From Candidatus Borkfalkia stercoripullorum (GTDB lineage: Bacteria > Bacillota > Clostridia > Christensenellales > Borkfalkiaceae), in NCBI GenBank assembly GCA_019119395.1, contig DWXC01000033.1, positions 1-64,000 on the forward strand: a DNA stretch of 64,000 nucleotides, read 5' to 3'. The notes under the pieces are model-generated. The model was not told the DNA's origin. It saw only the letters and a program-made list of their open reading frames with translations, and did not search any database. The position numbers were made by a program, and so were the translations under genes. Positions within the stretch are counted from its first letter, which is position 1; each line of letters opens with the position of its first letter. Below are positions 5,305-16,899 of the stretch, in pieces.

Positions 5305-6048
5305 ATGCCAATGGAATATGCCAACGCGGAAAAATTTCTGAAAAGTTACAACCGCATCGAGAGCCAGCTGAAGATCCTCTACGGCGGAAGGGCGACGCAG
5401 AATTTTACCGACCTCGTCAAGCGCTGCACCGACCTGAACATGACGGTGCGCCGCTACGAAAACGAACTCATCGACTACGGCAAGCTGCGCAACGCGATCG
5501 TGCACCGCGCGACCGATTCGGAAGAGGTGTTCATCGCCAACCCCTGCGACAACGTCGTGGAAAACATCGCGTTCATCGAAAAGCAGCTCTGCCACCCGCC
5601 GCGCATCACGGAGGCGATCAAAGTAAAAAAAATCGCATCCGTTTTTGCGGACAAACCGCTCATCGCGGCGGTCAAAGAATTTGCCGAAACGTGGCAGAAA
5701 TCGCTCGTGGTGTACGACCACGGGAAAATGGTAGGCGTCATCAATTCTTACGGCCTGTACGCGGAACTCGCCGCCCGCGCGGAAAAAGGGGAAGACCTCA
5801 ACGAATTCCTTACCCGGACGCCCTGCGGCAGCATCGTCGGCGAGGAAATTCTCGCCAGGTATAAGATCGTGCCCGAGGACGCGACCGTGTTCGACGTGTT
5901 CAAATCGTTCGAAGAAAAGAAGGATCTTCTCGCCGTCATCGTCACGGAACACGGGGTGCAGGGCGAAAAGGCGCTCACGATCGTCACCCCCGCCGATTTC
6001 CCGCGCATCAACCGCTATCTGGAGACGTACAACGTAAAGCCTTTTTAA
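5305..6048 (+). CDS. CBS-domain protein with helical N-terminus
   Basis: A 247-residue soluble protein. The N-terminal ~95 residues form a helical domain with 'YGKLRNAIVHRAT' (~60-72). The R-N-x(3)-H pattern recalls HEPN/DUF86-like RNase or nucleotidyltransferase-partner domains, but this is weak. The rest holds a pair of CBS motifs (~105-165 and ~180-240; 'LVVYDHGKMVGVINSYGLY', 'AVIVTEHGVQGEKALTIVTP'), which usually bind adenine nucleotides. Start at 5305 or, two codons later, 5311; AAGGAGG lies 4 or 10 nt upstream. It has its own promoter and faces away from the HNH gene. Confidence 0.75.
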   Translation: MPMEYANAEKFLKSYNRIESQLKILYGGRATQNFTDLVKRCTDLNMTVRRYENELIDYGKLRNAIVHRATDSEEVFIANPCDNVVENIAFIEKQLCHPPRITEAIKVKKIASVFADKPLIAAVKEFAETWQKSLVVYDHGKMVGVINSYGLYAELAARAEKGEDLNEFLTRTPCGSIVGEEILARYKIVPEDATVFDVFKSFEEKKDLLAVIVTEHGVQGEKALTIVTPADFPRINRYLETYNVKPF

Positions 6049-6105
6049 GAATGAAAGAAATTCCCAAAAAATTAAAAATTTTTTCAAAAATTTTTTAAAA
6101 AGGTA

Positions 6106-6133
6106 TTGACAAGCCGAAAATATGTGATATAAT
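6106..6133 (+). promoter_or_regulatory. Strong promoter of the putative large ncRNA
   Basis: TTGACA (6106-6111), 16-nt spacer, TATAAT (6128-6133). Consensus hexamers with no Shine-Dalgarno or credible reading frame after them. Confidence 0.8.
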
Positions 6134-6139
6134 AAAGGT

Positions 6140-6776
6140 ACGAATAAGGGAACAGCCCCAGGGCGTTGACCGGACGGGGAGTCTTGAACGGCTCGGCGGG
6201 AGGTCTTTCCCGCAAACGATCGCGGAACAGATTTGTGCGGAGCGAATTCTCGAGGACGGCATCCTTAAAAAAGATGGCGGGCGCGAAACGCAAAAAAGAG
6301 AAGCGAGAGGGAGCGGCAAAGCCTTTCAAAGAAAAGGGAGAGGCAAACGGGTTCGGTAAACGGCAGACATCCGTCTGCAGACGTAAGGTTTCGTACGAAC
6401 TTACGGGAAAGAAGCCGTTGAACCGAAGGATTGTTCTTTTACGGAATGTGGGTTTATATCGCACAATATCTCGGAAATGCGGGGCATTTCCAAGCCGTAA
6501 AAATTTTGTTTGCGCGGGAAATCCAAACACGTTTATCCAAAAAAGTGCGGACGGGATTTTATAAGGCTTTCGGGTTGATAAGGGAGAAAATGGCATACCG
6601 TTAAAAGGGAAAGCAAAATTTTTTTCGGGACTGAAAATTTAACCGACAAGGATGTCGCAAAATGGTTAAAAAGCGTAAGTAACAGTCCGTGAAGAAAACT
6701 TTTCGGAATATACGGTTTGAGAATTTGTATAAACGCCACAGCGGGCGGTGCGCTTTATAAGCGCACCGCCTTGAAT
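6140..6776 (+). ncRNA. Putative large structured non-coding RNA
   Basis: About 640 nt between a consensus promoter and a GC-rich terminator hairpin, with no protein-like ORF. Local hairpins include 6196-6213, 6363-6378 (GCAGAC/GTCTGC with a tetraloop), 6382-6405, 6473-6491 (GGAAATGC/GCATTTCC) and 6643-6656. Long-range pairs also fit: AACGGCT (6187-6193) with AGCCGTT (6413-6419), and TTCGGT (6352-6357) with ACCGAA (6422-6427), which would enclose two of the hairpins in a multi-branch fold. Size and complexity are like the large ornate RNAs (OLE, ROOL, GOLLD), but I cannot match it to any of them by memory. It is not RNase P, tmRNA, SRP or 6S RNA as far as conserved segments show. Confidence 0.6.
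6744..6776 (+). terminator. Terminator of the putative ncRNA
   Basis: Perfect 10-bp stem GGCGGTGCGC/GCGCACCGCC (6744-6753, 6761-6770) followed by ttgaatttta. The U-tract is imperfect, so some read-through to the stronger hairpin at 6921 is possible. Confidence 0.55.
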
Positions 6777-6780
6777 TTTA

Positions 6781-6920
6781 AAAACCGCCGAAAAGAATTG
6801 CGGGGGAGTTTCCCCGCGCGGGCGCGTACCGTCCGAATACGGAAGGCGTTTCGGGCGAAATGCCGCTTGTAAAATTTCGGGAGAAGTTCGCGCACGAAGG
6901 AAAAAACATGGCATAATTAT
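6781..6920. other. Short intergenic stretch, no gene
   Basis: No supported gene. It may be the 3' part of the ncRNA if the hairpin at 6744 does not terminate. It contains a GGGGAG...TTCCCC hairpin near 6803-6815. Confidence 0.35.
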
Positions 6921-6947
6921 AAAAAACGCCGCAATGCGGCGTTTTTT
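6921..6947. terminator. Bidirectional intrinsic terminator
   Basis: AAAAAACGCCGC-AAT-GCGGCGTTTTTT, a symmetric hairpin with A and T runs on both sides, between the ncRNA and the convergent flavodoxin-like gene. Confidence 0.85.
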
Positions 6948-7033
6948 AAGGGCAGAAGAAGGGGGACGGCGCAAAAAAAACGGAGGGGCGCGTTTCACGG
7001 GAATCATGCGCCCCCTCGCGGCCGCCCGTGCGA

Positions 7034-13032: not shown

Positions 13033-16000
13033 ATGGGAAACAAGACTAATGAAAAGAGTTCGTCCGCCGAATTCCGCCTTATTTTGGAAAAGGCGGAAAA
13101 GGGCGACGCCGCCGCGCAAAACACGCTTGGCGAATATTATCGGTCGGGCAAGGGAGTGGATGCGGACTTGTCCAAGGCGGTCAAATGGTTTAAAAAGGCG
13201 GCAAAACAAGGTAACGCAGCGGCGCAGTATAACCTCGGGCATTATTACGATATAGGATATCCGGTTCGCAGGGATAATGCGAAGGCGGCCAAGTTGTATA
13301 AACTTGCCGCCGGGCAGGGACATCCGCGGGCACAAACCGAAACTGCAAAATGTTATTATTTCGGCAGAGGCGTTTCAAGGAACTACGAGGAAGCCGTAAA
13401 ATGGTATCTGAAAGCCGCTGCCGCGGAAGAAGTCGCGGCGCAGTTCAGCCTTGCCGAATGTTATGAATACGGCAAGGGCGTTGCCAAAGACCTCGTCGCG
13501 GCGATAAAATGGTATACGAGAGCGGCAGAAAACGGCGGGGTAATGGCGCGGGAGCACCTCGGTTACTGTTACGAATACGGCAGGGGCGTCGCCCAAGACA
13601 TTGCCGAGGCGGTAAAGTGGTATAAACTCGCCGCCGAGCAGGGCAGCGTTTTTGCGCAGGAAGGGCTTTCGCGGTGTCTCTCCCGTCAGACGGCGGAACA
13701 AGGGGCGGCGAAGGAAGCACGGCGCGCACAGGCGGATGGTACGAAAGCCGCGGCGCAGGCGGCGGGCGCGCGTAAAACGGGGCAAAAAACAGCCCCTGCG
13801 GCGCAATCGGCTTCTGTTCCCGCGCCGAAAACGCCCGCCCCCGCTCCGCGAACGGAAACACCCGCCGTAATCGAAAAGTCTGACCCTTCCGTTTCGCCTG
13901 CAAAGCCGGCGGAAAAAAAGCCCGTATCCGCAGAACTCCGCCTTATTTTGGAAAAGGCGGAAAAGGGCGACGTTTCCGCGCAGCGCGCGGCGGGGCTTGC
14001 CTACGACTTCGGCAACGGAACGGAGCAGGACTATGCCGAGGCTTTCAAATGGTACAAAGCCGCGGCGTGGCAGGGCGATGCGGAAGCCGCATGGCGGCTC
14101 GGGTATTTTTATGAGCACGGGCAGGGCGTCGAGGCCGATCTTTTCGAGGCGGCCGAGTGGTACCGCCTTTCCGCAAAGCGGGGCAACGAAACGGGCGCGC
14201 AAATGCTCTCCGCGGCGGAAGCGCTGCTCCCTTCGCAGAGTTACGCGCAGATCTTAAAAGCCGCGCAAAAGGGTATCGCTGCCGCCGAGCGCGCGGCGGG
14301 GCTTGCCTACGACTTCGGCAACGGAACGGAGCAGGACTATGCCGAGGCTTTCAAATGGTACAAAGCCGCGGCGTGGCAGGGCGATGCGGAAGCCGAGTGG
14401 CGGCTCGGGTATTTTTATCGTTACGGGCAGGGCGTCGAAAAGGACGTCGCAAAAGCCGCCGAATGGTTCGAACGCTCCGTTCGGAACGGGTGCGGATACG
14501 CGAAGGAACTTCTCGCCGAGGCGGAGAGCGCCCTTGCCGAAGAGACCGAGCAGCTCCTCATCAAGGCCTCCGCGGGCGATGGCGAGGCGCAATATAAATT
14601 GGGATGCCGTTATTCTTACGGGAAGGGCGCAGCGAAAAATCTCGCCGCCGCATTCCGTTGGTTCAAGGCGTCCGCCGAACAGGGCAACGCCTTCGGGCAG
14701 AATGCGCTTGGCGTTTGTTACAATATGGGCGAAGGCGTGCAAGAGGATAAAGCCGAGGCGGTCAAATGGTACAGGGCAGCCGCCGAACAGGGCTGTCCCC
14801 CGGCACAGCGCAATCTCGGTCTTTGCTATGAATACGGCGAAGGTGTTGCGCAAGACAGAACTCTGGGAGTCAGGTGGTATAAACGCGCCGCCGAACAGGG
14901 ATATCCATTGGCACAGCGCAATCTCGGCGTTTGCTATGAAAGGGGCGAAGGCGTTGCGCAAGACTATGCCGAAGCCGTAAAATGGTACAAACTCGCCGCC
15001 GAACAGGGAGATACCGTCGCGCAGTACAACCTCGGCAATTGTTACAACAACGGCCGGGGCGTAACGAAAAGCTATGCCGAAGCGTTCAAATGGTACAGGG
15101 CAGCTGCCGAACAGGGGAATGCGAACGCGCAACTTAACCTCGGGTATTGCTATTACAAGGGCGAAGGCGTTGCGCAAGACAAAACCGATGCCGTCAAATG
15201 GTTCAGGGTCGCTGCCGAACAGGGGAATGCGAACGCGCAATACAACCTCGGCATTTGCTATGACAACGGCTGGGGCGTAGTCAAAAGCCAAGCCGAAGCG
15301 TTCAAGTGGTACAGAAGATCCGCCGAACAAGGGGATGCAGACGCGCAATTCAATCTCGGCAACTGTTACAAAAATGGTTGGGGAGTTGTCAAAGACCTTG
15401 CCGAAGCGTTCAAATGGTACAAAGTCTCTGCCGAACAGGGCAATGCGGATGCGCAACTTAACCTCGGGTATTGCTATGAAAAGGGCGATGGCGTAGCGCA
15501 AAGTTGGGCGAATGCGGTCAAGTGGTATAAAGTCTCTGCCGAACAGGGCAATGCAATCGCGCAGTACAACCTCGGCAATTGTTACAACAACGGCTGGGGC
15601 GTAACGAAAAACTATGCCGAAGCGGTCAAATGGTACAAAAAATCCGCCGAACAAGGACATGCGAGCGCGCAAAACAACCTCGGGTATTGCTATAAAAAGG
15701 GCGAAGGCGTTGCGCAAGACAAAACCGAAGCCGTAAAATGGTACAAGGCAGCTGCCGAACAAGGGGATGCAGACGCGCAATTCAATCTCGGCAACTGTTA
15801 CAAAAACGGTTGGGGAGTTGCCAAAGACCTTGCCGAAGCTGTAAAATGGTACAAGGCTGCTGCCGAACAGGGGAATGCGAACGCGCAATACAACCTCGGC
15901 AATTGTTACAACAACGGCTGGGGCGTAGTCAAAAGCCAAGCCGAAGCGTTCAAGTGGTACAAGGCAGCTGCCGAACAAGGGGATGCAGACGCGCAACTTA

Positions 16001-16899
16001 ACCTCGGAATTTGCTATAAAAATGGAGAAGGCGTAGCGCAAAGCTGGGCGGAAGCGTTCAAGTGGTATAAAAAATCTGCCGAACAGGGAAATGCCGCCGC
16101 ACAGTGCAATCTCGGGTATTGCTATGACAAGGGCGAAGGCGTTGCGCAAGACAAAACCGAAGCCGTAAAATGGTACAAACTCGCTGCCGAACAGGGAGAT
16201 GCCGCCGCGCAATACAACCTTGGGCTTTGCTACGAAAAGGGCGAGGGTGTTGCGAAAAGCCATGTCGAAGCGTTTAAATGGTATAAAAAATCCGCCGAAC
16301 AGGGCAATGCGGTCGCGCAATACAACCTCGGGCTTTGCTATGACAACGGCTGGGGCGTAGTCAAAAGCCAAGCGGAAGCGGTCAAGTGGTATCAAAGATC
16401 CGCCGAACAGGGAAACGCCGCCGCACAGTGCAATCTCGGGTATTGCTATGAAAAGGGCGAAGGCGTAATCAAAAGCCAAACCGAAGCGGTCAAGTGGTAC
16501 AAAAGATCCGCCGAACAAGGGGATGCAGACGCGCAATTCAATCTCGGCGTTTGCTATGAAAAGGGCGAGGGTGTTGCGAAAAGCCATGTAGAGGCGTTCA
16601 AATGGTATAAAGCAGCCGCCGGGAAGGGGGTTGCGAACGCGCAATGTAAACTCGGCTATTTCTATGGTAAAGGTTTAGGCGTAATCAAGAACAACGCCGA
16701 AGCGGTCAAATGGTACAAAGCGGCTGCCGAACAGGGGTATGCGACGGCGCAGTATAACCTCGGCAGTTGTTACAACAACGGCTGGGGTGTAACGAAAAAC
16801 TATGCCGAAGCGGTCAAATGGTATCAGAAAGCAGCCCGCGGCGACGACGCGGAGATACGCCGCAAAGCGGAGGACGCGCTCAAAAGCCTGCGGCGCTGA
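13033..16899 (+). CDS. Giant Sel1-repeat (SLR/TPR-like) protein
   Basis: A 1288-residue protein made of about 30 Sel1-like repeats of ~36 residues (pattern A-x-Y-N-L-G-x-C-Y-x-x-G-x-G-V then A-x-K-W-Y-x-x-A-A-E-Q-G). Six repeats (~residues 15-215) are followed by an Ala/Pro-rich linker (~220-295), a diverged block (~300-510) and a long regular array (~520-1285). No signal peptide or membrane segment is seen, so it is probably cytoplasmic and scaffolds protein complexes. Start: ATG 13033 after AGGGAGAG. DNA-level units of 108 bp are nearly identical, so expansion by recombination is likely and copy number may vary. Confidence 0.85.
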   Translation: MGNKTNEKSSSAEFRLILEKAEKGDAAAQNTLGEYYRSGKGVDADLSKAVKWFKKAAKQGNAAAQYNLGHYYDIGYPVRRDNAKAAKLYKLAAGQGHPRAQTETAKCYYFGRGVSRNYEEAVKWYLKAAAAEEVAAQFSLAECYEYGKGVAKDLVAAIKWYTRAAENGGVMAREHLGYCYEYGRGVAQDIAEAVKWYKLAAEQGSVFAQEGLSRCLSRQTAEQGAAKEARRAQADGTKAAAQAAGARKTGQKTAPAAQSASVPAPKTPAPAPRTETPAVIEKSDPSVSPAKPAEKKPVSAELRLILEKAEKGDVSAQRAAGLAYDFGNGTEQDYAEAFKWYKAAAWQGDAEAAWRLGYFYEHGQGVEADLFEAAEWYRLSAKRGNETGAQMLSAAEALLPSQSYAQILKAAQKGIAAAERAAGLAYDFGNGTEQDYAEAFKWYKAAAWQGDAEAEWRLGYFYRYGQGVEKDVAKAAEWFERSVRNGCGYAKELLAEAESALAEETEQLLIKASAGDGEAQYKLGCRYSYGKGAAKNLAAAFRWFKASAEQGNAFGQNALGVCYNMGEGVQEDKAEAVKWYRAAAEQGCPPAQRNLGLCYEYGEGVAQDRTLGVRWYKRAAEQGYPLAQRNLGVCYERGEGVAQDYAEAVKWYKLAAEQGDTVAQYNLGNCYNNGRGVTKSYAEAFKWYRAAAEQGNANAQLNLGYCYYKGEGVAQDKTDAVKWFRVAAEQGNANAQYNLGICYDNGWGVVKSQAEAFKWYRRSAEQGDADAQFNLGNCYKNGWGVVKDLAEAFKWYKVSAEQGNADAQLNLGYCYEKGDGVAQSWANAVKWYKVSAEQGNAIAQYNLGNCYNNGWGVTKNYAEAVKWYKKSAEQGHASAQNNLGYCYKKGEGVAQDKTEAVKWYKAAAEQGDADAQFNLGNCYKNGWGVAKDLAEAVKWYKAAAEQGNANAQYNLGNCYNNGWGVVKSQAEAFKWYKAAAEQGDADAQLNLGICYKNGEGVAQSWAEAFKWYKKSAEQGNAAAQCNLGYCYDKGEGVAQDKTEAVKWYKLAAEQGDAAAQYNLGLCYEKGEGVAKSHVEAFKWYKKSAEQGNAVAQYNLGLCYDNGWGVVKSQAEAVKWYQRSAEQGNAAAQCNLGYCYEKGEGVIKSQTEAVKWYKRSAEQGDADAQFNLGVCYEKGEGVAKSHVEAFKWYKAAAGKGVANAQCKLGYFYGKGLGVIKNNAEAVKWYKAAAEQGYATAQYNLGSCYNNGWGVTKNYAEAVKWYQKAARGDDAEIRRKAEDALKSLRR
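14590..16845 (+). repeat. 108-bp coding tandem array within the Sel1 gene
   Basis: About 21 consecutive 108-bp units with high DNA identity, each containing variants of 'ctcggcaattgttacaacaa' and 'gccgaacagggcaatgc'. Two further identical ~100-bp segments occur earlier, around 13995-14090 and 14300-14395. Unit phase matches the 36-residue Sel1 period. Confidence 0.8.

Follow-up and report, generated by a model that had tools for sequence, protein, structure and literature searches.

The window analysed here is a 64,000-nt stretch of Candidatus Borkfalkia stercoripullorum (Borkfalkiaceae, Christensenellales), namely positions 1-64,000 of contig DWXC01000033.1 (GCA_019119395.1). The 3' end of a 23S rRNA gene and a 5S rRNA gene occupy positions 1-596, and a 1288-aa protein that by eye contains many Sel1-like repeats is encoded at 13033-16899 (+). 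The features considered below lie between these genes (Table 1). An initial annotation, made from the letters alone, had described a strong promoter and a large non-coding RNA at 6106-6776. We find there an RNA of about 640 nt that is almost certainly a real family, conserved and structured. The most informative feature lies outside those coordinates and had been missed: the gene at 5305-6048, which encodes the probable partner of the RNA.

Table 1. Features of the RNA locus, in window coordinates
Feature	Position	Strand	Basis
Partner gene, predicted HEPN-CBS protein, 247 aa	5305-6048	+	Pfam, motif, AlphaFold2, PDB matches, co-occurrence with the RNA
A+T-rich spacer, UP-element-like	6049-6105	+	Composition, phased tracts, relatives
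Promoter, TTGACA-N16-TATAAT	6106-6133	+	Consensus match, conservation in homologs
Structured non-coding RNA, about 637 nt up to the GC hairpin	6140-6776	+	Homologs; no ORF or Rfam family
Site 1, self-complementary CTCGAG	6249-6254	+	Palindrome in 30/30 genus members examined
Site 2, CGTCTGCAGACG	6372-6383	+	g10 equivalent pairs with site 1
Long-range stem, 5' strand GTGGGTTTATA, closing the 3' domain	6448-6458	+	g10 covariation; partner strands visible in g1
3' core, highly conserved, with nested helices and TTAACC hairpin	6598-6719	+	Basis of both covariance models (R1, R2)
Long-range stem, 3' strand TATAAACGCCAC	6728-6739	+	As for the 5' strand
GC-rich hairpin closing the RNA, weak U tract after it	6743-6771	+	Conserved, covarying
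Terminator hairpin, symmetrical, standard	6920-6948	+	Sequence; matches terminator-like hairpins in BLASTN and Rfam searches

Promoter and transcript ends

The promoter bears out its description as near-consensus: it matches at 12 of 12 positions, carries an extended -10 TG, and is conserved in homologs. No other promoter-like site is present in the 1.2 kb around it, and shuffled sequences yield 0.7 sites even at the much looser threshold of 9/12. Its position is kept in every complete RNA locus, about 430-660 nt 5' of the RNA core. A second Christensenellales family, f32, retains it in three of four loci with the -10 one base off; the fourth locus is cut by a contig end. The 57 nt preceding the promoter are 84% A+T with phased A/T tracts, and this spacer, which is A+T-rich in relatives too, resembles an UP element in its sequence. 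From the promoter, we predict that transcription starts near 6140.

The 3' end is less certain. The GC-rich hairpin that the initial annotation took to close the RNA is present, with 13 pairs followed by TTGAATTTT. Because this U tract is imperfect, transcription may run on to the standard terminator downstream, which is a possible alternative 3' end and could act for the oppositely oriented flavodoxin gene as well. Weak Rfam matches to terminator hairpins at 6898-6948 (e.g. SpF10, 33 bits against a cut-off of 60) were judged to be chance.

Coding potential and identity of the RNA

Reading frames of 132 aa (+) and 170 aa (-), the longest across the region, could suggest that it codes for a protein or is the leader of an mRNA. 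No frame of the RNA region matches Pfam, the longest ORF varies in strand and position among RNA homologs, and the genes downstream of the RNA vary and often face the opposite way, as the flavodoxin gene does in the window. We regard a coding or leader function as scarcely tenable. The original judgement that no credible ORF is present stands; a protein hit to one of the frames, which would have refuted the RNA, was looked for and none was found.

Bacteria have few large structured RNAs, and even for the best studied, such as OLE, ROOL and GOLLD, the function is still being established. On size and complexity, the initial annotation had proposed either a divergent member of one of these three families or a new class, and had suggested an Rfam search. 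That search returned no family match for the RNA region or the 14 homologs included; in the region, no Rfam 15 family reached its gathering score. Even at loose thresholds, the OLE, ROOL, GOLLD and raiA models gave no match, either in the window region (E<=10) or in 14 homologs (E<=2). Size and complexity are thus all that remains to suggest a divergent member of these families, raiA included, and we consider this very improbable; it is the new-class option that gains support. As far as these comparisons reach, the RNA matches no known Rfam family, neither OLE nor any other. The OLE model and the raiA model (RF03072) also gave no match in this genome, though control genomes gave none either. 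The raiA motif (ModT RNA), likewise a conserved structured RNA of Bacillota, differs further in being about 200 nt long. ROOL and GOLLD resemble the window RNA as large, ornate RNAs with possible self-association; unlike them, it lacks an Rfam match and is not found in viral contigs save for chance matches. Phage records contain no match. Two pattern hits in IMG/VR were not confirmed by the covariance model, and one of them lies in apparently coding sequence. RNase P was also considered and rejected, since a separate match to the class B model, itself below the cut-off, sits on contig C19.

A literature search with the genus name and structured-RNA terms found no report of such an RNA, but did not cover the candidate lists in survey supplements. 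The RNA may therefore figure as an unnamed motif in the supplements of large surveys, e.g. of the human microbiome.

Structure and covariation

Folded as a single sequence, the RNA has a minimum free energy of -205.3, against -182.9 +/- 8.0 for shuffled sequences. This z of -2.8, from only 20 shuffles, is suggestive on its own. The single sequence folds only moderately better than its shuffles, and the case for structure therefore rests on comparison with relatives, in which covariation provides what we consider decisive, if wholly sequence-based, evidence. In an alignment of 38 core sequences, 95.5% of cells are paired, compared to 78.0% in shuffled and 39-51% in slid controls. Both-sided changes occur in 32 of 43 pairs (22.8 when shuffled), with a covariation score of 0.497 compared to 0.184. 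This alignment was fitted to a covariance model and is biased towards structure. Sixteen sequences from a second genus, g10, were aligned without structure, and here 29 of 69 pairs show both-sided changes versus 16.2 when shuffled and 3-15 when slid; the structure itself was written from one of the aligned sequences. The terminal hairpin is misaligned in the g10 set (46.5% paired) and is to be ignored there; it is well supported in the 38-sequence alignment. Together, the homologs and the covariation uphold the proposal of a structured RNA.

The initial annotation had also drawn long-range pairings by eye. Conserved long-range pairing does exist, in the stem that g10 covariation places between 6448-6458 and 6728-6739 and in the nested helices of the core, but these are not necessarily the pairs originally drawn. 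The g10 covariation further supports a helix between sites 1 and 2 (UCUGYRGG/CCYRCAGA) as well as a crossing helix, so that a pseudoknot is probable. No tandem or direct repeats were found inside the RNA.

Site 1, about 95-135 nt into the RNA, is self-complementary in all 30 genus members examined, whatever its sequence: CTGCGCAG in 14, CTGCAG in six, CTGTACAG in six, CTCGAG in three and CCTAGG in one. Such a pattern is what an intermolecular contact (a dimer or kissing loop) would leave, and this reading fits the genus. Self-complementarity is not kept in g10. Since site 1 pairs with site 2 there instead, the dimer reading remains open.

Distribution of the RNA

The RNA is single copy in its own genome, and BLASTN finds homologs in other members of Candidatus Borkfalkia. 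In genus g3, what BLAST matches (e.g. in L018) is the promoter alone and not the RNA. A first covariance model, built on the 176-nt 3' core, was used to search 398 genomes of the family and detected the RNA in all 40 sampled Candidatus Borkfalkia members, in 27 g10 genomes and in one g8 genome. With a broader second model, used for the order and class searches, four f32 genomes were recovered among 396 genomes of the order; these hits, absent from model training, have E values between 1e-13 and 1e-16 when the extracted loci are scored. The same model found no credible RNA in 291 genomes of the class, where the sole hit (E 3.6e-4) was judged to be chance. Absence of conservation in close relatives would have spoken against the initial annotation; the RNA is conserved there and beyond.

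The partner protein

The product of the upstream gene is predicted, from its sequence, to be a HEPN-CBS protein. Pfam CBS is matched above the cut-off (6.3e-7), with a CBS pair at about residues 97-241. The HEPN assignment is sub-threshold in Pfam: RiboL-PSP-HEPN falls below the cut-off (best member 3.5e-4), and the N-terminal part gives weak matches to several different HEPN models. A motif, RNAIVH, is found at residues 62-67, and R62, N63 and H67, as all positions of RN-x-I-x-H, are invariant in 45 aligned homologs. The protein thus carries the motif of the HEPN superfamily, Rx4-6H with a polar residue after R, a pattern described in Anantharaman et al. (2013; PMC3710099). Invariance of the active-site positions argues for a working nuclease, though activity has not been shown.

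An AlphaFold2 model of the protein has a pLDDT of 90 (51 for an 8-sequence model). Fold searches of the PDB return CBS pairs, with a VIA-align Z of up to 14.3 (2.9 A over 126 residues), and the pair in this protein resembles binders of AMP, ADP, ATP or c-di-AMP. The C-terminal CBS pair is predicted to be of a nucleotide-binding type; the ligand itself is inferred. No HEPN structure was found for the N-terminal part by sequence-profile search, and the fold lists were filled with CBS proteins, so the fold searches say nothing about the HEPN half. A second HEPN-CBS paralog, 43% identical, is encoded elsewhere in the genome (contig C21:16321-17040), without the RNA downstream.

Association of the RNA with the HEPN-CBS gene

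Among the 398 family genomes, all 67 with an ortholog of the HEPN-CBS gene have the RNA and 330 have neither; in G162 alone, a genome of 75% completeness, the RNA occurs with no ortholog detected. The RNA is found in none of 21 genomes that carry only a paralog. It thus goes with one HEPN-CBS clade and not with its paralogs. Fisher's test gives 6e-76 without correction for kinship. As the genomes are related, 67 of 67 does not represent 67 independent events, and this value cannot be taken at face value as a probability.

In 59 of the 67 genomes, gene and RNA share a strand and the RNA follows immediately, its core starting 489-878 nt past the gene end. The two are 5.0-6.3 kb apart in four genomes, with ABC transporter genes between them in the one such locus examined, and on different contigs in another four. 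In nearly all of the loci that were compared, those of f32 included, the first same-strand gene upstream of the RNA belongs to the HEPN-CBS family; in one locus this gene is 5 kb away. No other neighbour recurs across lineages, and the flanks change on both sides of the pair. In the protein tree, HEPN-CBS proteins with an alignable RNA cluster together, with support of only 0.43. The protein of the g8 genome (L147, G198) nests inside the g10 clade and is accompanied by the RNA; this suggests that gene and RNA travelled as a pair, by a probable joint transfer unless the contig is misbinned.

One could envision that the RNA has a regulatory or housekeeping role of its own, and that shared ancestry, not function, ties it to the HEPN-CBS gene. 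Its own promoter, its core-like distribution and its retention when distant from the gene, or on another contig, are consistent with this idea. It does not account for a pair that recurs in two families while its flanks do not, for the absence of the RNA from paralog-only genomes, or for the apparent transfer of the two together. We consider independence improbable and a functional partnership between the RNA and the HEPN-CBS protein highly likely.

Discussion

Our best reading, to which we assign a probability of roughly 45%, is that RNA and protein form a ribonucleoprotein of two components, the RNA binding a nucleotide-sensing HEPN RNase and keeping it restrained; expression, binding, inhibition and ligand are all inferred. 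The strong promoter looks constitutive, which argues for an abundant RNA, and abundance is what a restraining partner would need. The RNA would bind the HEPN-CBS protein and hold its RNase site in check; HEPN RNases usually work as dimers. The CBS pair would serve as the sensor of an adenine nucleotide or a similar ligand. Ligand binding, or loss of the RNA, could then alter RNase activity and couple RNA turnover to the energy or stress state of the cell. Taken separately, direct binding between RNA and protein seems rather more probable than its absence, and restraint of the RNase as the main role of the RNA is a tentative proposal, at somewhat less than even odds. We hold more loosely still the idea of a novel ribonucleoprotein class, in which a large, possibly homo-oligomeric RNA gates the nuclease and RNA decay is switched by nucleotide state. 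HEPN-CBS fusions have the same domain pair and were proposed to regulate RNA stability upon ligand sensing; an RNA partner is not mentioned in the accessible portion of that source (Anantharaman et al., 2013).

AbiF offers a precedent: there, a neighbouring RNA keeps a HEPN-like toxin in check (PMC12373285). AbiF/RCd22, a type III-like toxin-antitoxin system, resembles our locus in placing a structured RNA beside a HEPN-type protein gene. It differs in that its RNA is upstream, short and built of two repeated motifs, in a phage-borne system, whereas the window RNA is downstream, about 640 nt long, non-repetitive and core to the genus. The RNA thus lacks the upstream, tandem-repeat layout of a type III antitoxin. 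In 59 of 67 genomes it adjoins a predicted HEPN protein gene, for whose product RNase activity and toxicity are both unproven. Several points weigh against our best reading: there are no direct data on binding, expression or nuclease activity, the HEPN assignment is sub-threshold, the module looks like part of the core genome of the genus, unlike most toxin-antitoxin loci, and the RNA, 3' of the gene and without repeats, lies kilobases away in four genomes.

Alternatively, the RNA itself could do the work, or act as the scaffold, in a stress ribonucleoprotein of the OLE type, with the HEPN-CBS protein maturing, anchoring or tuning the RNA. In its size, its large fold of several domains and its near-exclusive link to a single neighbouring protein, the RNA recalls OLE with OapA (PMC11332333), where an RNA of about 600 nt adjoins a dedicated protein gene. 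The core-genome distribution also fits, as does the palindrome at site 1, given the homo-oligomers described for OLE, ROOL and GOLLD (PMC12286853). Unlike OLE, the window RNA shows no sequence or Rfam (RF01071) similarity to that family and has no OapA gene beside it, its neighbours being the HEPN-CBS and flavodoxin genes; OapA is a membrane protein, whereas the partner here is predicted to be soluble. The invariance of the HEPN active-site positions, which extends to RNA-less paralogs, suggests that catalysis is selected and makes a working RNA the less likely account, but sequence cannot separate it from the inhibition model.

Another possibility is that the RNA guides the nuclease to other RNAs or activates it against them, in the manner of crRNA and Cas13. 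An RNA beside the gene of a predicted HEPN nuclease invites this comparison, and it has been suggested that Cas13 descends from AbiD/F proteins (cited in PMC12373285). Against it, the locus has no repeat-spacer layout, and conservation lies in paired core helices with no evident exchangeable guide. We consider a guide function quite unlikely.

If restraint of the HEPN RNase by the RNA is borne out, the RNAs that control HEPN nucleases would include, besides short antitoxins, a large RNA belonging to the core genome of a gut genus, and HEPN-CBS proteins, predicted in 2013, would gain a concrete biological setting. The pair suggests an undescribed two-part RNA-protein machine in Candidatus Borkfalkia and some relatives. 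The function of this RNA is unusually accessible because the likely activities of its conserved partner, RNA cleavage and nucleotide sensing, are directly testable.

Related proteins outside the RNA-bearing clade have other surroundings. The genes of the sister proteins in g5 and g12 (L180/G012 and L181/G061) are followed by the same promoter and a similar 5' end, and then by different, purine-rich sequence that cannot be aligned, at least 800 nt of it after the gene in G012; these sequences are possibly fast-evolving relatives of the RNA. The g11 proteins (L178, L179) adjoin a cca-like gene and no such RNA. More distant homologs (L153-L169) neighbour, by eye, T-box-like leaders or ileS-like genes, which, with the cca-like gene, hints at a tie to translation.
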